This document shows, piece by piece, positions 1 through 14,138 of a DNA stretch of 33,816 nucleotides (position 1 is its first letter; each line of letters opens with the position of its first letter). The notes beneath the pieces are model-generated. The model was not told the DNA's origin, made no database searches, and saw nothing but the letters and a program-made list of their open reading frames with translations. A program made the position numbers and the translations under genes. The DNA comes from a virus: the IMG/VR virus record IMGVR_UViG_3300027791_000073, positions 1 to 33,816 of that record; one strand, 5' to 3'.

Positions 1-38
1 GCCTTGCTGATAACAGCGTTTTCCTTTTTATCATACAT
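1..38 (-). CDS. Partial small ORF running off the left edge
   Basis: Reading leftward from an ATG at 38-36, twelve codons are visible (MYDKKENAVISK) before the window ends. The ATG shares its A with the TAA stop of the HAD-like gene (TAATG junction), and an AAGAGG ribosome binding site lies about 8 bases upstream inside that gene. It is therefore probably the next gene of the same leftward, translationally coupled operon. Nothing can be said about its function. Confidence 0.55.
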   Translation of the reverse strand, partial: MYDKKENAVISK

Positions 39-472
39 TACGCCAACCTCTTTGCATCATAACAAGTGATTCCTAATTTTCTGACGCTGTCCAAATTGCT
101 TTGGCTATCATCATAAAAATCTTTATCTGCAAAAATGAAATCATTGTTTGCAACAATCAGTTTCAGAATTTGCTTATTTTTTAGCAATCCTGATTCTGTT
201 GTATCTCCAACATTTCTTTCGATAAGAAAATCGCAAGGAATACCTTTAAAGAATAAAACCAGTTTCAACCATGGTCTGTATTCTCTTGCTGTGCAAATAA
301 CAATTACATTGCCTTTTGCTTTTTCCTCTTTTGCCAATTTCACAAGATTGGTTTTCTTGTAAAACAGATTTCTAAAGAAAGTATTTCTGCGATAAAAAGC
401 AGATAGGCTTTCCCCGTTTGGTGTTTGTCCTAAGACAAGCGTTTCATCATAATCAAATATTACTATTTTCAT
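38..472 (-). CDS. HAD-superfamily phosphatase, polynucleotide 3'-phosphatase-like
   Basis: A 144-aa protein with the HAD catalytic motifs in order. Motif I is FDYDETL, with nucleophile D7 and acid D9. Motif II is VICTAR, with T61. A lysine-containing segment lies around K98-K100, and the acidic metal-binding motif is FYDDS with D121 and D122. The length matches a stand-alone phosphatase domain such as the C-terminal half of phage T4 polynucleotide kinase/phosphatase, and no P-loop kinase domain is present. By family it would remove phosphate groups, possibly 3'-phosphates on nucleic acid ends, in the cytoplasm; the exact substrate is not visible. The start is well supported by GGGGATG a few bases upstream and an ATGA overlap with the preceding 59-aa gene. 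Confidence 0.75.
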   Translation of the reverse strand: MKIVIFDYDETLVLGQTPNGESLSAFYRRNTFFRNLFYKKTNLVKLAKEEKAKGNVIVICTAREYRPWLKLVLFFKGIPCDFLIERNVGDTTESGLLKNKQILKLIVANNDFIFADKDFYDDSQSNLDSVRKLGITCYDAKRLA

Positions 473-648
473 TTTTTCATCCCCTTCAAAATGGAATATA
501 AAATATCCCGTTGGTTTTCTAGGCGTTTTAATTCTTTGCCTAGGTTTAGATCAGTACGCCACCATTGAACCTCATGCCGTTTTTTATCAAGCTCAGCATT
601 GACGCTTGATATCTCATGAAGGATTTTTAATTGTAGTTTTCTGCTCAT
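469..648 (-). CDS. 59-aa hypothetical protein, charged and helical
   Basis: A short leftward gene encoding 59 residues, starting MSRKLQLKIL and ending ILKGMKK. It is rich in Lys, Glu, Arg and Leu with heptad-like spacing, so it is likely a small coiled-coil protein, with a WWR patch in the middle. Its TGA stop overlaps the ATG of the HAD-like gene (ATGA), which supports both starts and indicates one operon. The ribosome binding site is weak (TAAGG). It is the first gene after the leftward promoter at 736-771. No family was recognised. Confidence 0.65.
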   Translation of the reverse strand: MSRKLQLKILHEISSVNAELDKKRHEVQWWRTDLNLGKELKRLENQRDILYSILKGMKK

Positions 649-730
649 GCCTTATTATAACGCTAAAGCGACATATAACGCCACCTATTTATTTGCTGCC
701 GTTTACCCCCCAGCATAAAAGTAGACCTTG

Positions 731-770
731 TGTCAAATCTTTATGATATTTTCTGTCACAAGATTTGACA
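731..770. repeat. 11-bp perfect inverted repeat over divergent promoters
   Basis: TGTCAAATCTT (731-741) and its exact complement AAGATTTGACA (760-770) flank an 18-base centre. The right arm contains the -35 of the rightward promoter and most of the -35 of the leftward promoter, so a dimeric regulator here could control both. A related but degenerate copy precedes the second promoter. Confidence 0.7.
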
Positions 771-771
771 A
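736..771 (-). promoter_or_regulatory. Leftward sigma70-type promoter
   Basis: On the minus strand, TTGTCA (771-766) and TATCAT (748-743) are separated by 17 bases; each differs from consensus at one position. The predicted start is near 736, upstream of the 59-aa gene at 648. It sits back to back with the rightward promoter, sharing the -35 region. This is a sequence prediction only. Confidence 0.5.
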
Positions 772-801
772 GTCATATGCGGGTGTGATAAAATCGGCGC
801 C
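765..801 (+). promoter_or_regulatory. Promoter P1 with extended -10
   Basis: TTGACA at 765-770, an 18-base spacer and TAAAAT at 789-794 preceded by TGA (extended -10, TGnTAAAAT). The predicted start at about 801 is the first base of a Fur-type palindrome, the geometry expected for repression by a Fur dimer. A diverged copy of the whole arrangement lies about 209 bases downstream. Confidence 0.65.
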
Positions 802-825
802 CAAATGAGAATCATTCTCATTTGG
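801..825. promoter_or_regulatory. Fur-type box 1
   Basis: A 25-base perfect palindrome (12-base arms around a central C) with core TGAGAATCATTCTCA. The Fur 7-1-7 motif is TGATAATNATTATCA; the core matches 13 of the 14 informative positions if one allows the symmetric T/G change once per half, that is one mismatch in each half-site. It begins at the predicted start of P1. Classical Fur with ferrous iron would bind such a site and block transcription. No phage-encoded Fur is visible, so a host regulator is implied. Confidence 0.7.
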
Positions 826-840
826 AAAACCTGGTCTACC

Positions 841-867
841 TTAAAATTTGCTATAAGCAAATTTTAA
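841..867. repeat. Perfect AT-rich palindrome (12-bp arms)
   Basis: TTAAAATTTGCT (841-852), a three-base centre, and AGCAAATTTTAA (856-867) form a perfect inverted repeat between the two Fur-type promoters. As RNA from P1 it would form a 12-bp hairpin with a three-base loop; as DNA it could be an operator. There is no U-tract after it, so it is not a standard terminator. Confidence 0.75.
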
Positions 868-973
868 GGGTTGTCGACCCAAAGGTCAAGTTATGTGACA
901 GTTGTGTGACAGGTTTTCCCTATCACAAAACAGACAAGAATGCAAATTTATTTTATATTTTTTGTCATGCGAT

Positions 974-1009
974 TTGCATTTGAAATCTAGGTGTGATATT
1001 TTAGGCGCC
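974..1009 (+). promoter_or_regulatory. Promoter P2, second copy of the Fur-type promoter
   Basis: TTGCAT at 974-979, a 17-base spacer and TATTTT at 997-1002 with an extended TGA before it; predicted start near 1009. It is weaker than P1 but keeps the GTGTGATA segment, the GGCGCC segment and the same position relative to its Fur box, so the pair looks like a duplication of about 75 bases followed by divergence outside the operator. Confidence 0.5.
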
Positions 1010-1030
1010 AAATGAGAATCATTCTCATTT
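1010..1030. promoter_or_regulatory. Fur-type box 2
   Basis: A 21-base palindrome with 10-base arms around a central C, identical over the whole arm sequence to box 1 (core TGAGAATCATTCTCA). Its exact preservation, while surrounding bases of the duplicated promoter have diverged, argues for selection on the binding site. Confidence 0.7.
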
Positions 1031-1042
1031 AGAATTTTACCC

Positions 1043-1075
1043 AAAAAAAGAGGTGATCAAAAAATGACCACCTCT
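1043..1075 (-). terminator. Rho-independent terminator of the leftward exonuclease operon
   Basis: On the minus strand, a stem AGAGGTGGTC/GATCACCTCT (one internal mismatch, seven-base loop) is followed directly by a run of T. It lies about 50 bases after the stop codon of the exonuclease gene, so it ends the operon that starts near 3170. On the plus strand the hairpin lacks a U-tract. Confidence 0.85.
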
Positions 1076-1126
1076 AAGATTGCTATTTGTCATGGGCAAT
1101 CAATCCATGTTTCATGGGATATGAAA

Positions 1127-1972
1127 TTATTTGTTGCCCCCAAAGTCTAATATCCCTTGAAGGTTTTTTAATTTCGAATCCTCGATTGGTTTTGCAACCT
1201 CTCGTTTTCTCATCTTCTCGGCAGACGAAAGCCTGTCTCGAAGTAATGTCCATGAAACAGATTTTACATTGTTCAAAAAGTCCTTTTTGAATTCTGTAAA
1301 ATGTCTATCAACGAACAATCTCGCTAGTTCGAATTCAACCCTCGAATCATCTAAGGCTGTATGCGATTCTATGTAATCAGTATGTTTATTAATATACCTA
1401 GTCATGACCTCGGCAGAGTAGCCGAAATTTTTGCCCGAATGAGACATAAAGTTTTCTTGTTCGTCAGCATCAAGGTTATCAATGTATTTAAAATAGTTTC
1501 TATCAACGATTTTTCTAACATACATATCTTGCAAACAGAATTTGTTAAAATCCCAAGTTGGCAAAATTGCTGAATGATTCAAGTTGCGATTAGTAATATC
1601 AATCGCTGAAGAATCAAACGCCCAATTATAAGAGCCTACACAATCCACCATTGAAACATCAGCGTGTAAAACGCTCATTATGAAATCCCAAGATTGCACC
1701 ATGCTTGGCTCATCAAAAGCGTGGCGTTGCGTTTGCTCGGCTCGGCTGTCGATTTTCCAAAATTGACGATTGCCAGTTTCTTTATTGACAAAGGTATGTT
1801 TCCAAAAGGATAGGGGCAGAAATTCCTTTACGAAAAATCTGCGTTCTATCTTCGGTGCAGTAGCGTTTCTCAAATCTCCCATAACCCACCCAATATCATA
1901 AATGAGTTTATTATGTTCAGATTTAAAATGGGTTTCAGTGTCCAAGACCAAACCAGTAAATTTAGTTTTCAT
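1127..1972 (-). CDS. DEDDh 3'-5' exonuclease (DnaQ-like)
   Basis: A 281-aa protein with the three exonuclease motifs of the DEDDh family: VLDTET with D11 and E13, NWAFD with D120, and HTALDD with H204 and D208/D209. These bind two metal ions and degrade single strands 3' to 5'; in phages such proteins act in replication, repair or nucleotide recycling. About 70 residues follow motif III, ending in a charged tail. An upstream in-frame ATG would add 15 residues overlapping the previous gene, but I chose the ATG at 1972 because it overlaps the previous stop (ATGA) and has GGGGGCAA ahead of it. It is the last gene of the operon, followed by a strong terminator. Confidence 0.85.
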   Translation of the reverse strand: MKTKFTGLVLDTETHFKSEHNKLIYDIGWVMGDLRNATAPKIERRFFVKEFLPLSFWKHTFVNKETGNRQFWKIDSRAEQTQRHAFDEPSMVQSWDFIMSVLHADVSMVDCVGSYNWAFDSSAIDITNRNLNHSAILPTWDFNKFCLQDMYVRKIVDRNYFKYIDNLDADEQENFMSHSGKNFGYSAEVMTRYINKHTDYIESHTALDDSRVEFELARLFVDRHFTEFKKDFLNNVKSVSWTLLRDRLSSAEKMRKREVAKPIEDSKLKNLQGILDFGGNK

Positions 1973-2193
1973 CTTGTAATTGCCCCCATTAGAATCGTAA
2001 AGCAAAGCGTTGAACATATTGCAGTGCCAATAAGGATTAATAAGTCATCAATCCAAATAGACGAATAAGCAATATTGTCAAAGCATTGACCATTGATCTC
2101 GCTAGTTAATATATATTCACCTTGCATATAGCACATGAACCCAAATGCGATCACGCCCATAGAGGACACAATCATTATAATATTATGTATCAT
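1969..2193 (-). CDS. 74-aa small membrane protein with two helices
   Basis: Starts MIHNIIMIVSS and shows two hydrophobic segments, about residues 2-22 and 48-70, joined by a polar loop containing one Cys. This predicts a hairpin-like inner-membrane protein. The start at 2193 follows a strong GGGAGAT ribosome binding site; an in-frame ATG at 2241 would add 16 residues encoded by the hairpin sequence and lacks a binding site. The stop overlaps the exonuclease start. No family recognised; translation may be controlled by the alternative hairpins at 2197-2234. Confidence 0.6.
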   Translation of the reverse strand: MIHNIIMIVSSMGVIAFGFMCYMQGEYILTSEINGQCFDNIAYSSIWIDDLLILIGTAICSTLCFTILMGAITR

Positions 2194-2196
2194 AAT

Positions 2197-2234
2197 ATCT
2201 CCCATAAAATGGGGGGTGTGTAATGCCACCCCCC
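2197..2234 (-). promoter_or_regulatory. Alternative hairpins over a ribosome binding site, copy A
   Basis: In the leftward mRNA an 8-bp GC stem (2234-2227 with 2218-2211, eight-base loop) is followed by a CCCAT-TTT-ATGGG hairpin (2213-2209 with 2205-2201). The two share the CCC of the 3' arm, so they cannot both form. The second hairpin covers part of GGGAG, the ribosome binding site of the 74-aa membrane protein. The stem starts about ten bases after the stop of the 71-aa gene. Copy B has the same design. Confidence 0.6.
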
Positions 2235-2243
2235 TAAACATAT

Positions 2244-2459
2244 CTATCTTAACATATCGGCAAATCGTTCGAGAACAGAACGCTTAGGCTTCTTAATGAA
2301 ACCCACACATTCTAAGAAATACATTCGAGTATTATTCGAATCCTCTAACAAGTCATCTTGCCATGTATCTCTTTCACGATTAGTTTGCCTAAGCCATGAG
2401 CCATAACCTTGCTCAAGGTCATGGATCATCTCGGCATGGACAACATGGAAAAGGCTCAT
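2244..2459 (-). CDS. 71-aa hypothetical protein
   Basis: A soluble 71-residue protein (starts MSLFHVVHAE, ends RFADMLR) with an acidic centre and a basic KKPKR segment near the end. The ATG overlaps the stop of the 111-aa membrane protein gene (ATGA) and is preceded by GGGGG, so translation is coupled. It lies within the leftward operon between two membrane protein genes. No family recognised. Confidence 0.6.
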   Translation of the reverse strand: MSLFHVVHAEMIHDLEQGYGSWLRQTNRERDTWQDDLLEDSNNTRMYFLECVGFIKKPKRSVLERFADMLR

Positions 2460-2791
2460 GCGAACACCCCCCCAAGCTTTGCTAACATCAAGATGTTAAG
2501 TGTTATGCCAGTATAGTTACCTATGCTGTATAGCCTTAGATTCGAGATGTTAGTGTCATGGCTATTACGATATTGGTAACAGCATAACCCTATCAATAAT
2601 GATGAGTGCATCATTATCGCATTGCCCAAAATAAGATTAGGTATGATAGCGAGTTGCACAAAGCACAACCCAACATAGCCAACCTTATTAACAGATTTTT
2701 GTTTAGCAATCTGTTTCTGCTCAACAGCATTGATCATCTGCATTCTGTCATTCAATGATGATTGCTGTTTCCAAGTCTTAGAATATTTCAT
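2456..2791 (-). CDS. 111-aa membrane protein
   Basis: Polar N-terminus (MKYSKTWKQQ) of about 38 residues, then hydrophobic stretches around residues 39-60, 61-73 and 90-107, indicating two or three membrane helices. The start at 2791 has a GGGAGAG ribosome binding site five bases upstream; an in-frame ATG at 2839 would add 16 residues but has none. Downstream it overlaps the 71-aa gene by ATGA. The function is unknown; small membrane proteins in phage operons often act in superinfection exclusion or host takeover, but nothing here proves that. Confidence 0.6.
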   Translation of the reverse strand: MKYSKTWKQQSSLNDRMQMINAVEQKQIAKQKSVNKVGYVGLCFVQLAIIPNLILGNAIMMHSSLLIGLCCYQYRNSHDTNISNLRLYSIGNYTGITLNILMLAKLGGVFA

Positions 2792-2794
2792 ATT

Positions 2795-2832
2795 CTCTCC
2801 CATAAAATGGGCGTTGATTAATGGCAACGCCC
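2795..2832 (-). promoter_or_regulatory. Alternative hairpins over a ribosome binding site, copy B
   Basis: In the leftward mRNA an 8-bp stem GGGCGTTG/CAACGCCC (2832-2825 with 2816-2809, eight-base loop) competes with a CCCAT-TTT-ATGGG hairpin (2811-2807 with 2803-2799) that covers the GGGAG of the 111-aa membrane protein gene. Arm lengths, loop length, the shared CCC and the distance from the previous stop (nine bases) all match copy A, although the stem sequences differ. Confidence 0.6.
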
Positions 2833-2840
2833 TTACCATG

Positions 2841-3002
2841 TTAGACCAAGTCTCTTAACCATTCTAATAAAACATTCTTAGAAGAACGATTTAAAGAGGT
2901 GGCTAATTCGCCCTTGATATCCCAACCCTTTTGAGTACATACAAATTCGAGTATCTCTCTCTTTGTATGTTTCTCTAAGGGTTTCTTTTCTTTATCAGTC
3001 AT
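2841..3002 (-). CDS. 53-aa hypothetical protein, helix-turn-helix-like
   Basis: Encodes 53 residues beginning MTDKEKKPLE and ending LLEWLRDLV. After a charged N-terminus, residues 15-50 read like a short three-helix unit (EILEFVCTQKGWD, GELATSLN, KNVLLEWLR) with the spacing of a small helix-turn-helix DNA-binding domain, so it may be a regulator, but the similarity is loose. A GGGAAA binding site precedes the ATG. It is the first gene of the leftward operon, after a leader of about 170 bases with strong secondary structure. Confidence 0.55.
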   Translation of the reverse strand: MTDKEKKPLEKHTKREILEFVCTQKGWDIKGELATSLNRSSKNVLLEWLRDLV

Positions 3003-3110
3003 AGTATTTCCCATGATTTTTGTTTTTGTTTTGCTTACCCTATTGATCTATAGTGTGAGCTAGGAATTTTCTTAACCTCTTTGTGTATCCGTTTACGGCT
3101 TTCGCGTCGG

Positions 3111-3168
3111 CTCTTGATCTCGCAAGAGGGGAGAGGTTCTCATGTTGGGGTTGCGAACCCCCTCTCCC
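3111..3168 (-). ncRNA. Structured 5' leader with two abutting stems
   Basis: Read leftward, GGGAGAGG (3168-3161) pairs with CCTCTCCC (3136-3129), enclosing a GGGTT-CGC-AACCC hairpin (3160-3148). It is followed with no spacer by CTCTTG (3128-3123) pairing with CAAGAG (3116-3111). The first stem begins about two bases after the predicted transcript start. Adjacent stems at the very 5' end recall put-type antitermination RNAs of phage HK022, or 5'-protecting hairpins; the sequence itself does not resemble put. Confidence 0.5.
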
Positions 3169-3169
3169 T

Positions 3170-3206
3170 ATGCCCTATTATAAGCGATATATATAGCGTG
3201 TTGCAA
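3170..3206 (-). promoter_or_regulatory. Leftward promoter of the exonuclease operon
   Basis: On the minus strand a perfect TATAAT (3182-3177) lies 18 bases after TTGCAA (3206-3201, four of six matches). The predicted start near 3170 places the 5' end just before the structured leader. A similar block (TGCC, T or C, TATTATAA followed by GCGA) occurs near 648-675, upstream of the other leftward operon. Confidence 0.5.
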
Positions 3207-3446
3207 GAACCCTTTTAAAGCGTCGTTTCAGAGCATATTTTGAGGTAGCAAAAAGGCACGAGCCGAATCGGTTAGATCAAATGGATTGAGAATGTCAAGC
3301 ATATATATATTTATTTTTTAAAGCCTTGCATATAAGATACATACATGGTAGGGGGGTTCATTGACTACCTTTTTGCTGACTCGCTGGGCACCCCCACACG
3401 TACAACTTTCAAAAATTTTGATTTTTTGAAAATAACGCAGCGATCA

Positions 3447-3461
3447 GTATCATGATGATAC
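3447..3461. promoter_or_regulatory. Dyad GTATCA-TGA-TGATAC upstream of promoter
   Basis: Six-base arms with a three-base centre, 17 bases before the -35 of the terminase small subunit promoter. The TATCA/TGATA half-sites recur in the spacer of the promoter at 8444, suggesting a shared regulator; no regulator gene is identified here. Confidence 0.35.
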
Positions 3462-3477
3462 CTAGGGAAAATATTTC

Positions 3478-3513
3478 TTGACACCAGAGTTAAATTTTAG
3501 TATAATATACAAA
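3478..3513 (+). promoter_or_regulatory. Consensus promoter with leaderless start
   Basis: Perfect TTGACA (3478-3483), 17-base spacer and perfect TATAAT (3501-3506). Standard spacing puts the transcription start at 3513, which is the A of the first ATG, and no ribosome binding site precedes it. The spacer ends in AATTTT like the promoters at 8444 and 14163. Confidence 0.8.
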
Positions 3514-3971
3514 TGAGTAAAGAAATAGCAACCAAAATGAGTCCTGAAGGACTAGAGATCGCAAACACATACCTTGAACACGGAAGTATCCCGGCCGTCT
3601 GCCGTAAACTCGGTGTAAGTGAAAATGAAGTTAGTGATATCCTAAACAAACGAGAGATCAAAACTTATATCGACACTGTGTTTCTAGACACAGGATATAG
3701 AAACAGATTCAAAATAACTGAAACGCTAGATATGCTCATCGAGAAGAAACTTGAGGAATCTGAGGAGACTGAGATTTACACAAACAAAGACATGGCAGAT
3801 TTATTACAGATGGCACATAAGATGAGGATTGATGAACTAAAAGCACAAACCGATTATGAGAAAGCAAAAGCACAGACTGTAAAAACCCAAGTCAACATAC
3901 AAGACAATAGTGGTACACCTTTTGGACAAGGTAACTACGGAGAACTTATTAAAAAATTAATGAAGGACTAA
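3513..3971 (+). CDS. terS: Putative terminase small subunit
   Basis: A 152-aa protein with an N-terminal helix-turn-helix (AVCRKLGVSENEVSDIL, about residues 28-44), as in phage small terminase subunits that recognise the packaging site. A long helical segment rich in Lys and Glu follows, ending in a short basic tail (LIKKLMKD). The length and architecture fit; the assignment rests on that and on gene order in a phage genome, not on a catalytic motif. The large subunit lies about 8.9 kb downstream, an unusual separation. The message is predicted to be leaderless. It could instead be another phage DNA-binding protein. Confidence 0.6.
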   Translation: MSKEIATKMSPEGLEIANTYLEHGSIPAVCRKLGVSENEVSDILNKREIKTYIDTVFLDTGYRNRFKITETLDMLIEKKLEESEETEIYTNKDMADLLQMAHKMRIDELKAQTDYEKAKAQTVKTQVNIQDNSGTPFGQGNYGELIKKLMKD

Positions 3972-3979
3972 TAAGTTCG

Positions 3980-4022
3980 GACACATACTGTGTCAAGTTT
4001 GATTTAGCAACTGCTTAAATCA
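3980..4022 (+). terminator. Two hairpins after the terminase small subunit gene
   Basis: GACACA-TAC-TGTGTC (3980-3994) is a perfect 6-bp hairpin followed by a T-containing stretch. A second imperfect stem (TGATTTAGC with GCTTAAATCA, near 4000-4022) follows. The T-run is interrupted, so this is at best a weak, leaky terminator that would lower expression of the genes behind it. Confidence 0.35.
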
Positions 4023-4035
4023 TAGGGAGAAAAGA

Positions 4036-5073
4036 ATGAAAAGACTAGTTTTATTAACTGGCCTAGTAGCGTTTATGCCTTTGCAGGTTTTTGCTCAAGT
4101 GGATCAAACTGGTACAGGTTGTGCCAATGGAACACAATATTGCGAAAATAATACATTAGATACTACTAACAACACAACAACAAATAATACCAATACTAAC
4201 GCCAACACAAATACCAATACAAATACCAATACAAATAATAACACTAATAATAATACTAATACCAACGCAAACACTAACGTCAACACTAGTACTAATACCA
4301 ATACTAACGCTAACACAAATGTTAACACTAACACCAGTAATAATACTAATGCAAACACTAATACAAACAATAATACTTCAAATAGTACCAATAACAATAC
4401 TAATAGCAATACCAATACTAATGTTAATACATCTTCTGTTAACTCGACTTCGACTTCAGCTAATGTCAACACTAATACCAACAACAACACTAATACTAAT
4501 AATAGTACTAGTAACAACACTAGTAATAACACTAATACAAACGTCAACAACTCAACTTCTGACAGTAATGTAAAAACTGATAACAATAATACTAATAACA
4601 ATAATACTAAATCAGATAATAGAAACGAAAACTATAATAAATCTGAATCAGTACAGACAATTAACCAGAATGTTAAGTCTCCACCTCCAAGTGCTATCGC
4701 ACCTTCAATTATGTCATATTCGCAAGACTTATGTACTAGTGGAGTATCAGGAGCAGTTCAGACTCAAGTATTTGGTTTCTCTGGCGGAAAAGCGATTGTT
4801 GACAAAAATTGTGAAAGATTAAAACTGTCTAAGTACTTATACGACATGGGAATGAAAGTAGCATCGGTTGCTTTACTATGCCAAGACGAAAGAGTATTCT
4901 CTGCAATGGAGATGGCTGGAACACCTTGTCCTTATATGGGCGAAATTGGTAAGAAAGCTACTGTAGCATGGGAAGAAAATAAAGAAGATAAACCTAACTA
5001 TGTAGAAGTAGTAGAAAAAGGAAAATCTTGTAAACGAAAAGGCGGAAAAGCTCCAGGCGCAGTCTGTAAATAA
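4036..5073 (+). CDS. Secreted Asn/Thr-repeat protein with conserved C-terminal domain
   Basis: A 345-aa protein with a clear Sec signal peptide (cleavage after VFA, residue 20), a short Cys-containing segment, and then about 165 residues made almost only of Asn and Thr with scattered Ser, Val and Ala (residues about 40-205). A globular C-terminal domain of about 130 residues follows, with a proline-rich entry (PPPSAIAPS), six Cys residues likely forming disulfides and a basic end. The signal peptide implies export by the infected cell; the C-terminal domain may be the functional head on a flexible stalk. A strong AGGGAGAA binding site precedes the ATG. The role is unknown: adhesin, surface masking and virion decoration are possible. 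Confidence 0.7.
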   Translation: MKRLVLLTGLVAFMPLQVFAQVDQTGTGCANGTQYCENNTLDTTNNTTTNNTNTNANTNTNTNTNTNNNTNNNTNTNANTNVNTSTNTNTNANTNVNTNTSNNTNANTNTNNNTSNSTNNNTNSNTNTNVNTSSVNSTSTSANVNTNTNNNTNTNNSTSNNTSNNTNTNVNNSTSDSNVKTDNNNTNNNNTKSDNRNENYNKSESVQTINQNVKSPPPSAIAPSIMSYSQDLCTSGVSGAVQTQVFGFSGGKAIVDKNCERLKLSKYLYDMGMKVASVALLCQDERVFSAMEMAGTPCPYMGEIGKKATVAWEENKEDKPNYVEVVEKGKSCKRKGGKAPGAVCK

Positions 5074-8779: not shown

Positions 8780-9388
8780 ATGAAAACATTATTAACATTA
8801 CTACTAGCAGTTACAATGACACCAGTCTTTGCAGACATGTCAGGTTCTATGCAACTTACTTCAGATTACTTCTGGAGAGGTGCAACACAAACACAAGGAA
8901 AAGCAGCAATTCAAGGTGGCGTTAGCTATTCTAAGGATAGTGGCTTCTATGCAGGTGCATGGGGTTCAACTGTAGACTTTGGAACTGAAACTGAAATTGA
9001 ATATGATCTATACACAGGCTATGCAGTCGCTTTAGATGACTTAGCTATTGATGTAGGAATAATTCAATATAACTATGATGGTGAAGTGGATTCTGTCGAA
9101 GAATACTACTTAGTAATGAACTACGGGTGGGCATCATTTGGCTTTTGGTTTAATGATAGTAATATAGATACAGACTATACTCAAATAGAAGTAGACCTTC
9201 CTTTCCTTACATTTGCAGACGTTACCCTTAGATTGGGTGAGTTTGGAGATGACACTAATTTTACACAACTTACTTTCGCAAAAGATATCGGAGAGAACTT
9301 CACATTAGCACTAGAAGTAGTGTCTGAAGAATCTGATCTTCTTGACCTTGAAGAAAGAATGGCATTTACCCTACGATACAGGTTTTAA
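8780..9388 (+). CDS. TorF-like outer-membrane porin
   Basis: 202 aa with a signal peptide (1-18, cleavage after VFA). The mature start MSGSMQLTSDYFWRGATQTQ matches the hallmark of the TorF/TIGR02001 family of proteobacterial beta-barrel proteins (TSDY, aromatic-RG, then QGG and SGFYAG with Trp). The rest alternates hydrophobic and polar residues as short beta strands and ends RYRF, an aromatic C-terminus typical of substrates of the BAM assembly machine. It should therefore insert into the host outer membrane as a small barrel. AAGGAA precedes the ATG. Its stop overlaps the IscU start (TAATG). Possible roles are nutrient uptake, masking of phage receptors, or permeability change; the substrate is unknown. 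Confidence 0.8.
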   Translation: MKTLLTLLLAVTMTPVFADMSGSMQLTSDYFWRGATQTQGKAAIQGGVSYSKDSGFYAGAWGSTVDFGTETEIEYDLYTGYAVALDDLAIDVGIIQYNYDGEVDSVEEYYLVMNYGWASFGFWFNDSNIDTDYTQIEVDLPFLTFADVTLRLGEFGDDTNFTQLTFAKDIGENFTLALEVVSEESDLLDLEERMAFTLRYRF

Positions 9389-9813
9389 TGGCATACTCAC
9401 AAAAAGTAGTACAACGCTTTGAAGACGTACTAAACAATCCTGCAAAACATTCAGTTGGAAGGTTTGACCCTAAAGACCCAAATGTTGCAACAGGCATGGT
9501 CGGCGCACCAGCATGTGGCGACGTAATGAAACTAGACTTAAAGTTTGATGATAACGACAGAATACTAGATGTTAAATTCAAGACTTATGGTTGTGGTTCA
9601 GCAATCGCTTCCTCTACAATGTTTGTAGAAATGTTAAAAGGACGCACAATAGAAGAAGCAAAATTAATTAAAGACAAGGACATCGCAGATGCTCTTGAAT
9701 TACCTCCCATTAAACTTCATTGCTCTGTACTAGCCGAAGGTGCTATTACACAAGCTCTACAAAAATGGGAAGAAAAGAAAGCGCACAGGCTACATAACGG
9801 AGGCCCTGAATAA
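9388..9813 (+). CDS. iscU: IscU-type iron-sulfur cluster scaffold
   Basis: 141 aa aligning over nearly its full length with bacterial IscU (N-terminus MAYSQKV, as in E. coli MAYSEKV). All cluster ligands are present: C43 in GAPACGD with D45, C69 in TYGCGSAIAS, and H111-C112 in LHCSVLAE. The LPPIK motif (105-109) recognised by the HscA chaperone is kept too. A small insertion lies near residues 13-22 and the C-terminus is extended by about ten residues. The protein should accept iron and sulfur from host IscS and pass 2Fe-2S clusters to apoproteins. No IscS, HscA or ferredoxin is in the window, so it must plug into the host pathway. Translation is coupled to the porin (TAATG) and to the next gene (TAATG). 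Confidence 0.93.
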   Translation: MAYSQKVVQRFEDVLNNPAKHSVGRFDPKDPNVATGMVGAPACGDVMKLDLKFDDNDRILDVKFKTYGCGSAIASSTMFVEMLKGRTIEEAKLIKDKDIADALELPPIKLHCSVLAEGAITQALQKWEEKKAHRLHNGGPE

Positions 9814-10031
9814 TGGAAAACGAATATCAAACAAAAGACATGAAGTCATCACAAACAAAAATGAAAGAACCTAAGCCAAGTGGAATGAGTCCACCTGAGC
9901 ATATGGAAGATGGCGCAATTTTTGAGAAAGACGGAATGTTTTTCTTTAAGTGGAAAGGCGGAGAGTGTGGCTATGCTTCACATTCAGATGCAGAGGCTGG
10001 TTTACAGAAAGTTAGTGGCAACCCTAGCTAA
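9813..10031 (+). CDS. 72-aa hypothetical protein coupled to IscU
   Basis: Starts at the TAATG junction with IscU. The first 30 residues are polar and Lys/Pro/Met-rich and likely disordered; the last 40 (DGAIFEKDGMFFFKWKGG ... GYASHSDAEAGLQKV) look like a small beta domain with one Cys. No family was recognised. The tight coupling suggests it is made together with IscU, but a shared function is not shown. Confidence 0.6.
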   Translation: MENEYQTKDMKSSQTKMKEPKPSGMSPPEHMEDGAIFEKDGMFFFKWKGGECGYASHSDAEAGLQKVSGNPS

Positions 10032-10251
10032 GATAAGAGACTGGTGGTACTGGTTTCTTGGTTGGTTTGTAACTTATCATGAATTACAGGTAAGTTATAA
10101 TAGTCAATGGGGTGATGCAGACGATCAAACTTTTATTGTACGCAAATTTTACAAAAAACAACCAAACTATATTCGATTTAAAACACAAGACGGAGATATA
10201 GTTGAACTACGAGGCGCGGAAGGTCTCAATTACAGGATAAAAGAATTATGA
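10015..10251 (+). CDS. 78-aa hypothetical protein, Trp/aromatic-rich N-terminus, GTG start
   Basis: I chose GTG at 10015, giving MATLAKIRDWWYWFLGWF, because it overlaps the previous gene by only 17 bases; the in-frame ATG at 9910 would bury 100 bases inside it. Residues 8-20 form an aromatic amphipathic or interfacial helix; the remaining 55 residues read as a compact beta-rich domain (DDQTFIVRKFYKKQ, IRFKTQDGDIVELRG). It probably associates with the membrane surface. Overlaps the next gene by ATGA. Confidence 0.55.
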   Translation: MATLAKIRDWWYWFLGWFVTYHELQVSYNSQWGDADDQTFIVRKFYKKQPNYIRFKTQDGDIVELRGAEGLNYRIKEL

Positions 10252-12616: not shown

Positions 12617-12837
12617 ACTTGGATAATAAAGAGTGGTTAGAAGATATTGCTGCTTACAGCACTTCTACACTCGCTTTACTTAATAGAAAAGCAGAAAAAT
12701 CCAAACAGATTTCCGATGGAGATCAAGTTATGAGTGAAATATGTATTGGGTACTTGTATCTTTTACATACACTAAACACACAAGGGATATTGGAAACAAA
12801 ATCAATAGGTAACGCATTAAATAGAACTGTGCACTAA
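12607..12837 (+). CDS. 76-aa hypothetical helical protein
   Basis: Overlaps the previous gene by ten bases and abuts the large terminase gene at a TAATG junction. Predicted all-alpha (EWLEDIAAYSTSTLALLNRKA, MSEICIGYLYLLHTL) and acidic at the start. Its place directly before the large terminase is where many phages keep a small terminase or packaging accessory, so an accessory packaging role is possible but not shown. Confidence 0.55.
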   Translation: MELNLDNKEWLEDIAAYSTSTLALLNRKAEKSKQISDGDQVMSEICIGYLYLLHTLNTQGILETKSIGNALNRTVH

Positions 12838-14138
12838 TGTTAGATATTAGTAGAACAGACATAGTAAGTGATTCGTTTATGGACTTTCCAGCAGCGGATC
12901 GATTCATCAAGTTACCTATAGATTCCTACCTTGATCTGTTAGGGGTACAACCTAATAGTTCACAGACTGCATTAATCAATGCCGTCAACAACCCAAAATA
13001 TAGATTCGTTTGTGCCGCTATTTCTAGACGGCAAGGAAAAACATATATAGCAAATGTTATCGGGCAACTTGTTTCACTCGTGCCAGGTTCAAACATTCTA
13101 ATAATGTCACCTAACTACTCTTTGTCTCAAATATCATTTGACTTACAAAGACAACTTATTAAACATTTTGACTTAGAAGTTACAAAAGATAACGCAAAAG
13201 ACAAAGTAATAGAACTATCAAATGGCTCTACTATACGTATGGGTTCAGTAAACCAAGTCGACTCTTCTGTAGGAAGATCGTACGACTTAATAATTTTTGA
13301 CGAAGCAGCCTTGGCTGATGGCAAAGACGCATTTAACGTCGCCCTTCGTCCTACACTAGATAAAGATAATAGTAAAGCAGTATTTATATCTACTCCTCGG
13401 GGTAGAAATAACTGGTTTGCAGATTTTTATCACAGAGGGTTCAGCGATGAGTTTCACGATTGGGCATCAATCAGAGCAACTTATCACGAAAACCCACGCT
13501 TCAGTGATGATGACATCAGAGAAGCAAAGAAAGCTATGTCCTCAGCAGAGTTTGCCCAAGAATATATGGCAGATTTCAACACATATGAAGGACAGGTATG
13601 GAATTTTAATTTTGAAGAGTGTGTTGCAGACTTAAGTCAGCTAGATACTAGTAATATGGATGTGTTCGCGGGATTAGATGTTGGGTATAAAGATCCAACA
13701 GCATTGTGCGTCATAGCTTATGATTGGGATCAGCAAAAATTTTATCTTATAGATGAGTACATGGACGCTGAAAGAACTACAGAACAGCATGCTATAGAAA
13801 TTCGCCGAATGATAGACAAATATAGTGTTGATTACATTTATATCGATTCAGCAGCACAACAAACAAGGTTTGATTTTGCTCAGAATTATGATATTTCTAC
13901 TATTAATGCTAAAAAATCTGTTCTAGACGGAATCGGGCATACAGCGGGTATCATAGATAACGATAGATTGATAATAGATCAAAGATGTTCACAAGCATTG
14001 TCATGTGTAGATCAATACCAATGGGATTCAAATCCCAACTTACTGAAAGAAAAGCCAAAACATAATATGGCAAGTCATATGTCAGACGCACTTAGATATG
14101 CGCTGTACACATTTCAAGAATCTTCAGGGAGTTTTTAG
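12837..14138 (+). CDS. terL: Terminase large subunit
   Basis: 433 aa with both terminase activities visible. ATPase: a Walker A-like loop SRRQGKT (about residues 63-69), Walker B LIIFDEA with catalytic Glu, and a coupling motif STPRG. Nuclease (RNase H-like fold): GLDVGYKDP with the first Asp, YIYIDSA with the second, and HMSDALRYA with the third. The enzyme pumps DNA into the prohead at the portal and cuts the concatemer. Its length is typical. It starts at the TAATG junction and is the head of the packaging and head module; the small subunit candidate is far upstream at 3513. Confidence 0.96.
   Translation: MLDISRTDIVSDSFMDFPAADRFIKLPIDSYLDLLGVQPNSSQTALINAVNNPKYRFVCAAISRRQGKTYIANVIGQLVSLVPGSNILIMSPNYSLSQISFDLQRQLIKHFDLEVTKDNAKDKVIELSNGSTIRMGSVNQVDSSVGRSYDLIIFDEAALADGKDAFNVALRPTLDKDNSKAVFISTPRGRNNWFADFYHRGFSDEFHDWASIRATYHENPRFSDDDIREAKKAMSSAEFAQEYMADFNTYEGQVWNFNFEECVADLSQLDTSNMDVFAGLDVGYKDPTALCVIAYDWDQQKFYLIDEYMDAERTTEQHAIEIRRMIDKYSVDYIYIDSAAQQTRFDFAQNYDISTINAKKSVLDGIGHTAGIIDNDRLIIDQRCSQALSCVDQYQWDSNPNLLKEKPKHNMASHMSDALRYALYTFQESSGSF

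Follow-up and report, generated by a model that had tools for sequence, protein, structure and literature searches.

Predicted host Fur operators upstream of the packaging genes of a marine T5-like phage, at a place matching the T5 injection-stop region

We analysed a 33,816-nucleotide stretch of viral DNA (IMG/VR record IMGVR_UViG_3300027791_000073, positions 1 to 33,816; hereafter the window). The gene for the terminase small subunit (terS) lies at 3513–3971 and that for the large subunit (terL) at 12837–14138, both on the plus strand. TerL is about 50% identical to its counterparts in T5-like phages (Demerecviridae) of Vibrio and enterobacteria, and TerS and the portal, capsid, major tail, tape measure and tail proteins match those of T5. 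These genes mark the window as part of the genome of a marine T5-like phage. One related contig measures 91 kb. The 33.8-kb fragment, perhaps a third of a 90–120-kb genome, contains no recognisable A1, A2 or dmp pre-early genes and no end repeats. The initial annotation had spoken of a phage switch, and with packaging and tail genes of the T5 type a lysogenic switch finds no support. A search of INPHARED for DNA relatives gave only low-complexity matches to Pelagibacter phages at 4.7–5.0 kb, all of which stem from a gene at 4036–5073 for a protein of 345 aa that contains a long asparagine-threonine repeat and is probably secreted or virion-associated.

Upstream of terS, a 21-base palindrome, AAATGAGAATCATTCTCATTT, occurs in two identical copies on the plus strand, at 803–823 (box 1) and 1010–1030 (box 2). 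The copies are 207 bases apart, close to the approximately 209 first described, and the 33.8 kb contains no other match to the 21-mer with three or fewer mismatches. Box 1 overlaps a strong promoter, P1 (765–794, plus strand), composed of TTGACA at 765–770, an 18-base spacer and an extended −10 element, TAAAAT, at 789–794. P1 scores 11/12 against the σ70 consensus and its predicted +1 falls at about 801–802, with box 1 beginning at 803, or about +2. The initial annotation had proposed two promoters, each with the palindrome at its predicted +1. This holds firmly only for P1; the second, P2 (974–1002, plus strand; TTGCAT at 974–979, a 17-base spacer and TATTTT at 997–1002), is a weak promoter-like sequence matching 4/6 positions at each hexamer, under the cut of the promoter scanner, and its overlap with box 2 is correspondingly weak. 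GGCGCC precedes both boxes (796–801 and 1004–1009, plus strand). The sequence around the boxes has diverged, as had been noted: ungapped identity is 20–40% on either side, and a 23-base block ending in GGCGCC reaches 78%.

Several further elements surround the boxes. A perfect 14-bp inverted repeat, CCTTAAAATTTGCT/AGCAAATTTTAAGG, spans 839–869, and a minus-strand promoter-like site (861–889; TTGACC, 17 bases, TAAAAT) opposes P1, with its −10 inside an arm of this hairpin. The inverted repeat recurs with other sequence, its pairing kept, in six retrieved loci (L015, L027, L033, L038, L064 and L068), where counterparts of the leftward σ70-like site were also read by eye. A weaker minus-strand promoter-like site (743–771; TTGTCA, 17 bases, TATCAT) lies over the −35 element of P1. 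An intrinsic terminator (1049–1075, minus strand) ends the leftward gene cluster and adjoins box 2. After box 2, a 28-codon frame at 1064–1150 is preceded by a strong ribosome-site look-alike, AGAGGTGATC, and is kept in L064 with 54 identical bases. This identity, with no synonymous change, and the overlap with the leftward terminator speak against a coding frame; the conservation more likely reflects a nucleotide-level element than a gene.

The minus-strand gene at 1127–2017 encodes a 296-aa protein without a Pfam match that belongs to PHROG 20187, a family of unknown function; the initial annotation had called it an exonuclease. Rightward RNA from the region would be antisense to this gene, as had been noted. 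Small RNAs under Fur control (the RyhB/PrrF class) likewise combine a strong promoter, a Fur box where it starts and no clear long frame behind it. Unlike those RNAs, the window has no rightward terminator near P1 and no conserved RNA sequence, and an Rfam search of positions 1–4200 returned nothing real.

The identity of the palindrome was assessed by comparison with known Fur sites. The window core differs from the Fur 7-1-7 motif, TGATAATNATTATCA, by one base per half, as the initial annotation had said, but this position is variable among natural Fur sites, and position 7 of the 21-mer is G or T among the phage sites. Apart from the variable position and the centre, AAATGAGAATCATTCTCATTT fits the Vibrio Fur consensus AATGATAATAATTATCATT, which is experimentally bound (PMC7536154), and it has the form of the 19–21-bp inverted repeat by which Fur boxes are described (7-1-7 or AATGATAATAATTATCATT). 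From 161 distinct non-exact phage sites we derived a weight matrix, which we ran on 50 kb of Escherichia coli MG1655 that contain the enterobactin genes (600000–649999). The top six matches all fell in the fepB-entC, fepA-fes and fepD-entS intergenic operators, all of them textbook Fur targets. The training sites lie within four mismatches of the 21-mer, which inflates the scores of phage sites; the E. coli matches are independent of this. In the E. coli operators, as in the window, the motif overlies a σ70 promoter; the phage sites differ in being nearer to a perfect palindrome and in not standing ahead of iron genes.

Bacterial genomes gave a similar picture. Within 257 Gb of these genomes the exact 21-mer was found in 49 stretches, and in four organisms, namely SAR86, a marine gammaproteobacterium, a Pseudomonadales MAG and Bombella, it lies 10–166 bases upstream of a TonB receptor gene. 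Elsewhere in bacteria it precedes genes for metal-binding ABC proteins, and some neighbours are not metal genes. A search of 5,426 E. coli genomes gave no exact copy. The retrieval of E. coli Fur operators and the position before TonB receptors uphold the first reading of the element, and the palindrome is very likely a Fur box.

Among IMG/VR viral contigs the exact 21-mer occurs in 115 stretches, and 161 distinct further near-matches were found across the phage loci retrieved, against one match at four or fewer mismatches in shuffled loci; chance is therefore excluded. (An earlier, strict composite pattern of promoter, GGCGCC and box proved too narrow, with 10 stretches.) Boxes are present in 571 INPHARED phage records and in six plasmid records from a collection threefold larger. 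The phage carriers include many T5-like phages (Demerecviridae), and also Vequintavirinae/Stephanstirmvirinae, Klebsiella phage RaK2 and Pectobacterium phages of the genus Certrevirus, these last groups having arrays in long non-coding gaps. In four loci, from Certrevirus POP17, Phapecoctavirus ukendt and two IMG/VR contigs, which are unrelated to one another, tandem Fur boxes in non-coding gaps are regularly spaced at 29 bases. The jumbo phage RaK2 has about 12 Fur-like sites within 6 kb (222885–228906), and a non-coding gap of 1.5 kb contains many of these.

Arrays in other large phages (RaK2, ukendt, POP17) would suit a decoy, in which the boxes titrate Fur off host operators late in infection and de-repress iron uptake to the benefit of the phage. 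The phage boxes are also nearer to the ideal palindrome, host operators scoring at most 12.4 against 35.6 on a matrix that favours phage sites, and the window includes a gene for an IscU-like Fe-S scaffold. The Fur pool of a cell typically numbers thousands of molecules, and the two sites here, or the one to three usual in a marine genome record, would be few against it until late replication. Nor would a decoy need a fixed position, a fixed orientation or the links to a promoter and to GCGC described below. We consider a decoy improbable as the selected function. The transcripts may have a role as antisense RNA; like the decoy, this was raised by the initial annotation. The scaffold gene, of IscU/NifU type (9388–9813; PF01592, 1e-38), is an iron-related gene in a phage bearing Fur boxes; it is present in many relatives too, often adjoining a Gcw_chp/TorF-like porin gene (8780–9388 in the window).

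In most loci retrieved with the 21-mer, a terS or terL of the T5 type is found no more than a few kb away. For a test blind to the box, we collected 43 loci by their terminase small subunit, 21 of which had at least 2.5 kb upstream and were testable. A Fur site was present upstream of terS in 12 of the 21 and downstream in none of the 43; in the other nine testable relatives, with TerS 62–79% identical, a Fur site was not found. The pair of boxes, proposed as conserved, is not kept among relatives. The closest, L064/L277 (TerS 99%), has a single box, and L064 a single promoter that resembles a P2/P1 hybrid; L279 (TerS 89%) has two boxes 333 bp apart with flanks unrelated to those of the window. 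By this comparison of sequences, the conserved unit is the box and not the pair. The initial annotation had drawn selection on the operator from the identity of the two copies, which is weak evidence because recombination between copies within one genome can keep them alike; the retention of the box across phages with differing surroundings is real evidence of selection.

The GCGC within the motif preceding each box also recurs. RGCGC lies within 12 bp of 44 of the 90 distinct exact boxes, compared with 0–4 of about 80 at each of ten control offsets. The order GCGC, box, terS holds in 38 of 39 cases on either strand, the exception having GCGC on both sides. The major nicks of T5 DNA occur at R/GCGCRGG (PMC3517423), and the nick consensus in the T5 annotation (AY543070) is NPu/GCGCN, which G/GCGCC beside box 1 fits, giving a predicted break at 796/797; the matching motif beside box 2 would place a break at 1004/1005. 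The window motifs do not have the RGG extension, and a nick there is therefore a prediction. Four independent contigs (L005, L014, L016 and L084) begin with GCGC at their first base, followed by the box, and look as if the DNA had been broken at R/GCGC.

Promoters show a comparable linkage. Ending directly before GGCGC, a σ70 promoter scoring 11–12 of 12 was found at 28 of 52 GGCGC-linked boxes, and none of 279 control positions reached 10/12 or better. These promoters face terS and oppose the local genes. Read from sequence, the order upstream of the packaging genes is fixed as σ70 promoter, R/GCGC, Fur box and terS. No promoter was seen by eye at the Fur sites of T5, chee24 and close relatives, so promoter control belongs to part of the group and is not a universal role. 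A second promoter style is present in six loci (L016, L025, L036, L079, L097 and L107), in which the −10 element is an inverted repeat, CCAATTTTATGTGATAAAATTGG, followed by GGCGCC and the Fur box.

The single orientation of the box upstream of terS, together with the four contigs that end exactly at GCGC by the box, raises the question of a packaging signal, a palindrome recognised or cut by terminase whose likeness to a Fur site is superficial. The box is near-identical among phages with TerS only 31–82% alike, yet it is missing from the nine relatives noted above. The box is also found in other phage families and before bacterial TonB genes, its matrix retrieves E. coli Fur operators, and the T5 terminal repeat extends well past the Fur sites. 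We hold a packaging signal to be very improbable and reject a terminase site on the distribution of the palindrome across relatives. Still less probable, in our estimate, is that the selected function is a site for a phage-encoded regulator with Fur-like specificity or a 5' RNA hairpin formed by the palindrome. In the promoter-linked class the bases two positions out pair above shuffled expectation (24/27, p ~0.0005), but other flank positions are not significant. With covariation at one flank position only, the RNA hairpin was rejected. Further, no Fur homologue was found among the window genes, the T5 arrays have no promoter, and the exact Fur sequence is kept rather than pairing alone.

Entry of T5 DNA halts after about 8% of the genome; how this halt is brought about and why T5 DNA has fixed nicks are long-standing questions. 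We scanned nearly the whole T5 genome (the right terminal repeat duplicates the left). The cluster of strong Fur sites spans 9551–9716, inside the annotated injection stop signal (iss, 9140–10149; AY543070), which lies at the end of the terminal-repeat DNA that is transferred first; one further strong site is within dmp. A mapped nick at 9748 lies just past the cluster, and three DnaA boxes at 9449–9510 lie ahead of it, in a spacing kept in chee24, Vibrio X1 and KIT04. DnaA doublets accompany Fur boxes in T5-like phages of Vibrio, Escherichia and Salmonella, and in three marine loci (L279, L299 and L314) a DnaA doublet lies 140–190 bases from the Fur box; L279 also has iterons and several RGCGC. 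A 2026 paper describes repeats, palindromes and DnaA boxes in the injection stop signal, which may contact host components, and calls its mechanism poorly understood (PMC13250531). Our search, confined to open-access journal papers, returned no mention of Fur sites in any phage, T5 included, and those in the T5 injection stop signal seem to be previously unrecognised. The initial annotation had overlooked the correspondence with this position in T5, the fit of GGCGCC to the nick consensus and the DnaA boxes in relatives.

The T5 region and the window share Fur boxes with an adjoining R/GCGC oriented toward the packaging side, a set of early-side genes that ends at the site, and packaging genes of the T5 type. 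They differ in that T5 has an array of sites, DnaA boxes, a mapped nick and no promoter, whereas the window, known from a fragment alone, combines two boxes and GCGC motifs with a strong promoter and lacks DnaA boxes. The window thus has palindromic repeats upstream of its packaging genes, as an injection stop signal does, but positions 1–3500 contain no DnaA boxes, and we therefore treat the locus as an equivalent place rather than as an injection stop signal. In the Vibrio T5-like phage vB_ValS_X1 (MT442039) about 8 kb separate the Fur array from terL downstream, with leftward small genes between, and a DnaA doublet is present; in phages of this type A1, A2 and dmp lie between the array and the terminase, and none of these was seen in the window.

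Taken together, these comparisons suggest that the two palindromes are probably host Fur operators of a T5-like phage, at a place matching the T5 injection-stop region, where Fur-Fe(II) would repress a promoter reading toward those of packaging. Once the DNA is in the cell, host Fur-Fe(II), given a cognate host Fur, would occupy the box and, in this clade, cover the start of the near-consensus P1, which points toward the packaging genes and against the leftward early-side genes. P1 would be silent in an iron-replete cell; release of Fur in an iron-poor cell would let it fire into the leftward genes, and its transcript would be short or antisense. The Fur sites, the DnaA sites and the nick are all kept in T5 and its close relatives without such a promoter, and the ancestral role shared with T5 was therefore probably not promoter control. 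It may lie in DNA entry or in the nick; in the least certain step of the argument, it was probably the marking of the entry boundary with host DNA-binding proteins.

A different possibility is that Fur, with DnaA, anchors the DNA physically or topologically when the first transfer step is complete, so that entry depends on host iron and transcription is secondary. We know of no way in which a soluble repressor could halt incoming DNA. Several relatives, moreover, have no Fur sites, and the window has no DnaA boxes. For such an anchor speak the position of the T5 Fur sites, inside the annotated iss and next to the DnaA boxes and the mapped nick, the Fur sites without promoters in T5 and chee24, the same anatomy in the marine locus L279, and the possible host contacts ascribed to the injection stop signal (PMC13250531). 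We regard it as unlikely, though it ranks second to transcriptional repression and ahead of a decoy, with the terminase site and the RNA hairpin last. A wider proposal, which we put forward as speculation and think somewhat less likely again, is that in T5-like phages Fur and DnaA are integral to the injection stop, host iron gating entry of the rest of the genome; in the marine members the Fur-repressed, near-perfect promoter, aimed at the end that is first to enter in T5, would then act as a transcription-driven brake.

As Fur operators, found with DnaA doublets and R/GCGC from T5 to uncultured ocean phages, the palindromes would name a concrete host protein. A Fur identity makes the injection-stop question of T5 testable in E. 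coli, and it would link a large group of marine phages to iron, the limiting metal of their habitat. At the start of one 91-kb contig (L272; IMGVR_UViG_3300030328_002692), three DnaA doublets lie near one end and terS at the other, and this contig seems to have been broken across the injection-stop region.
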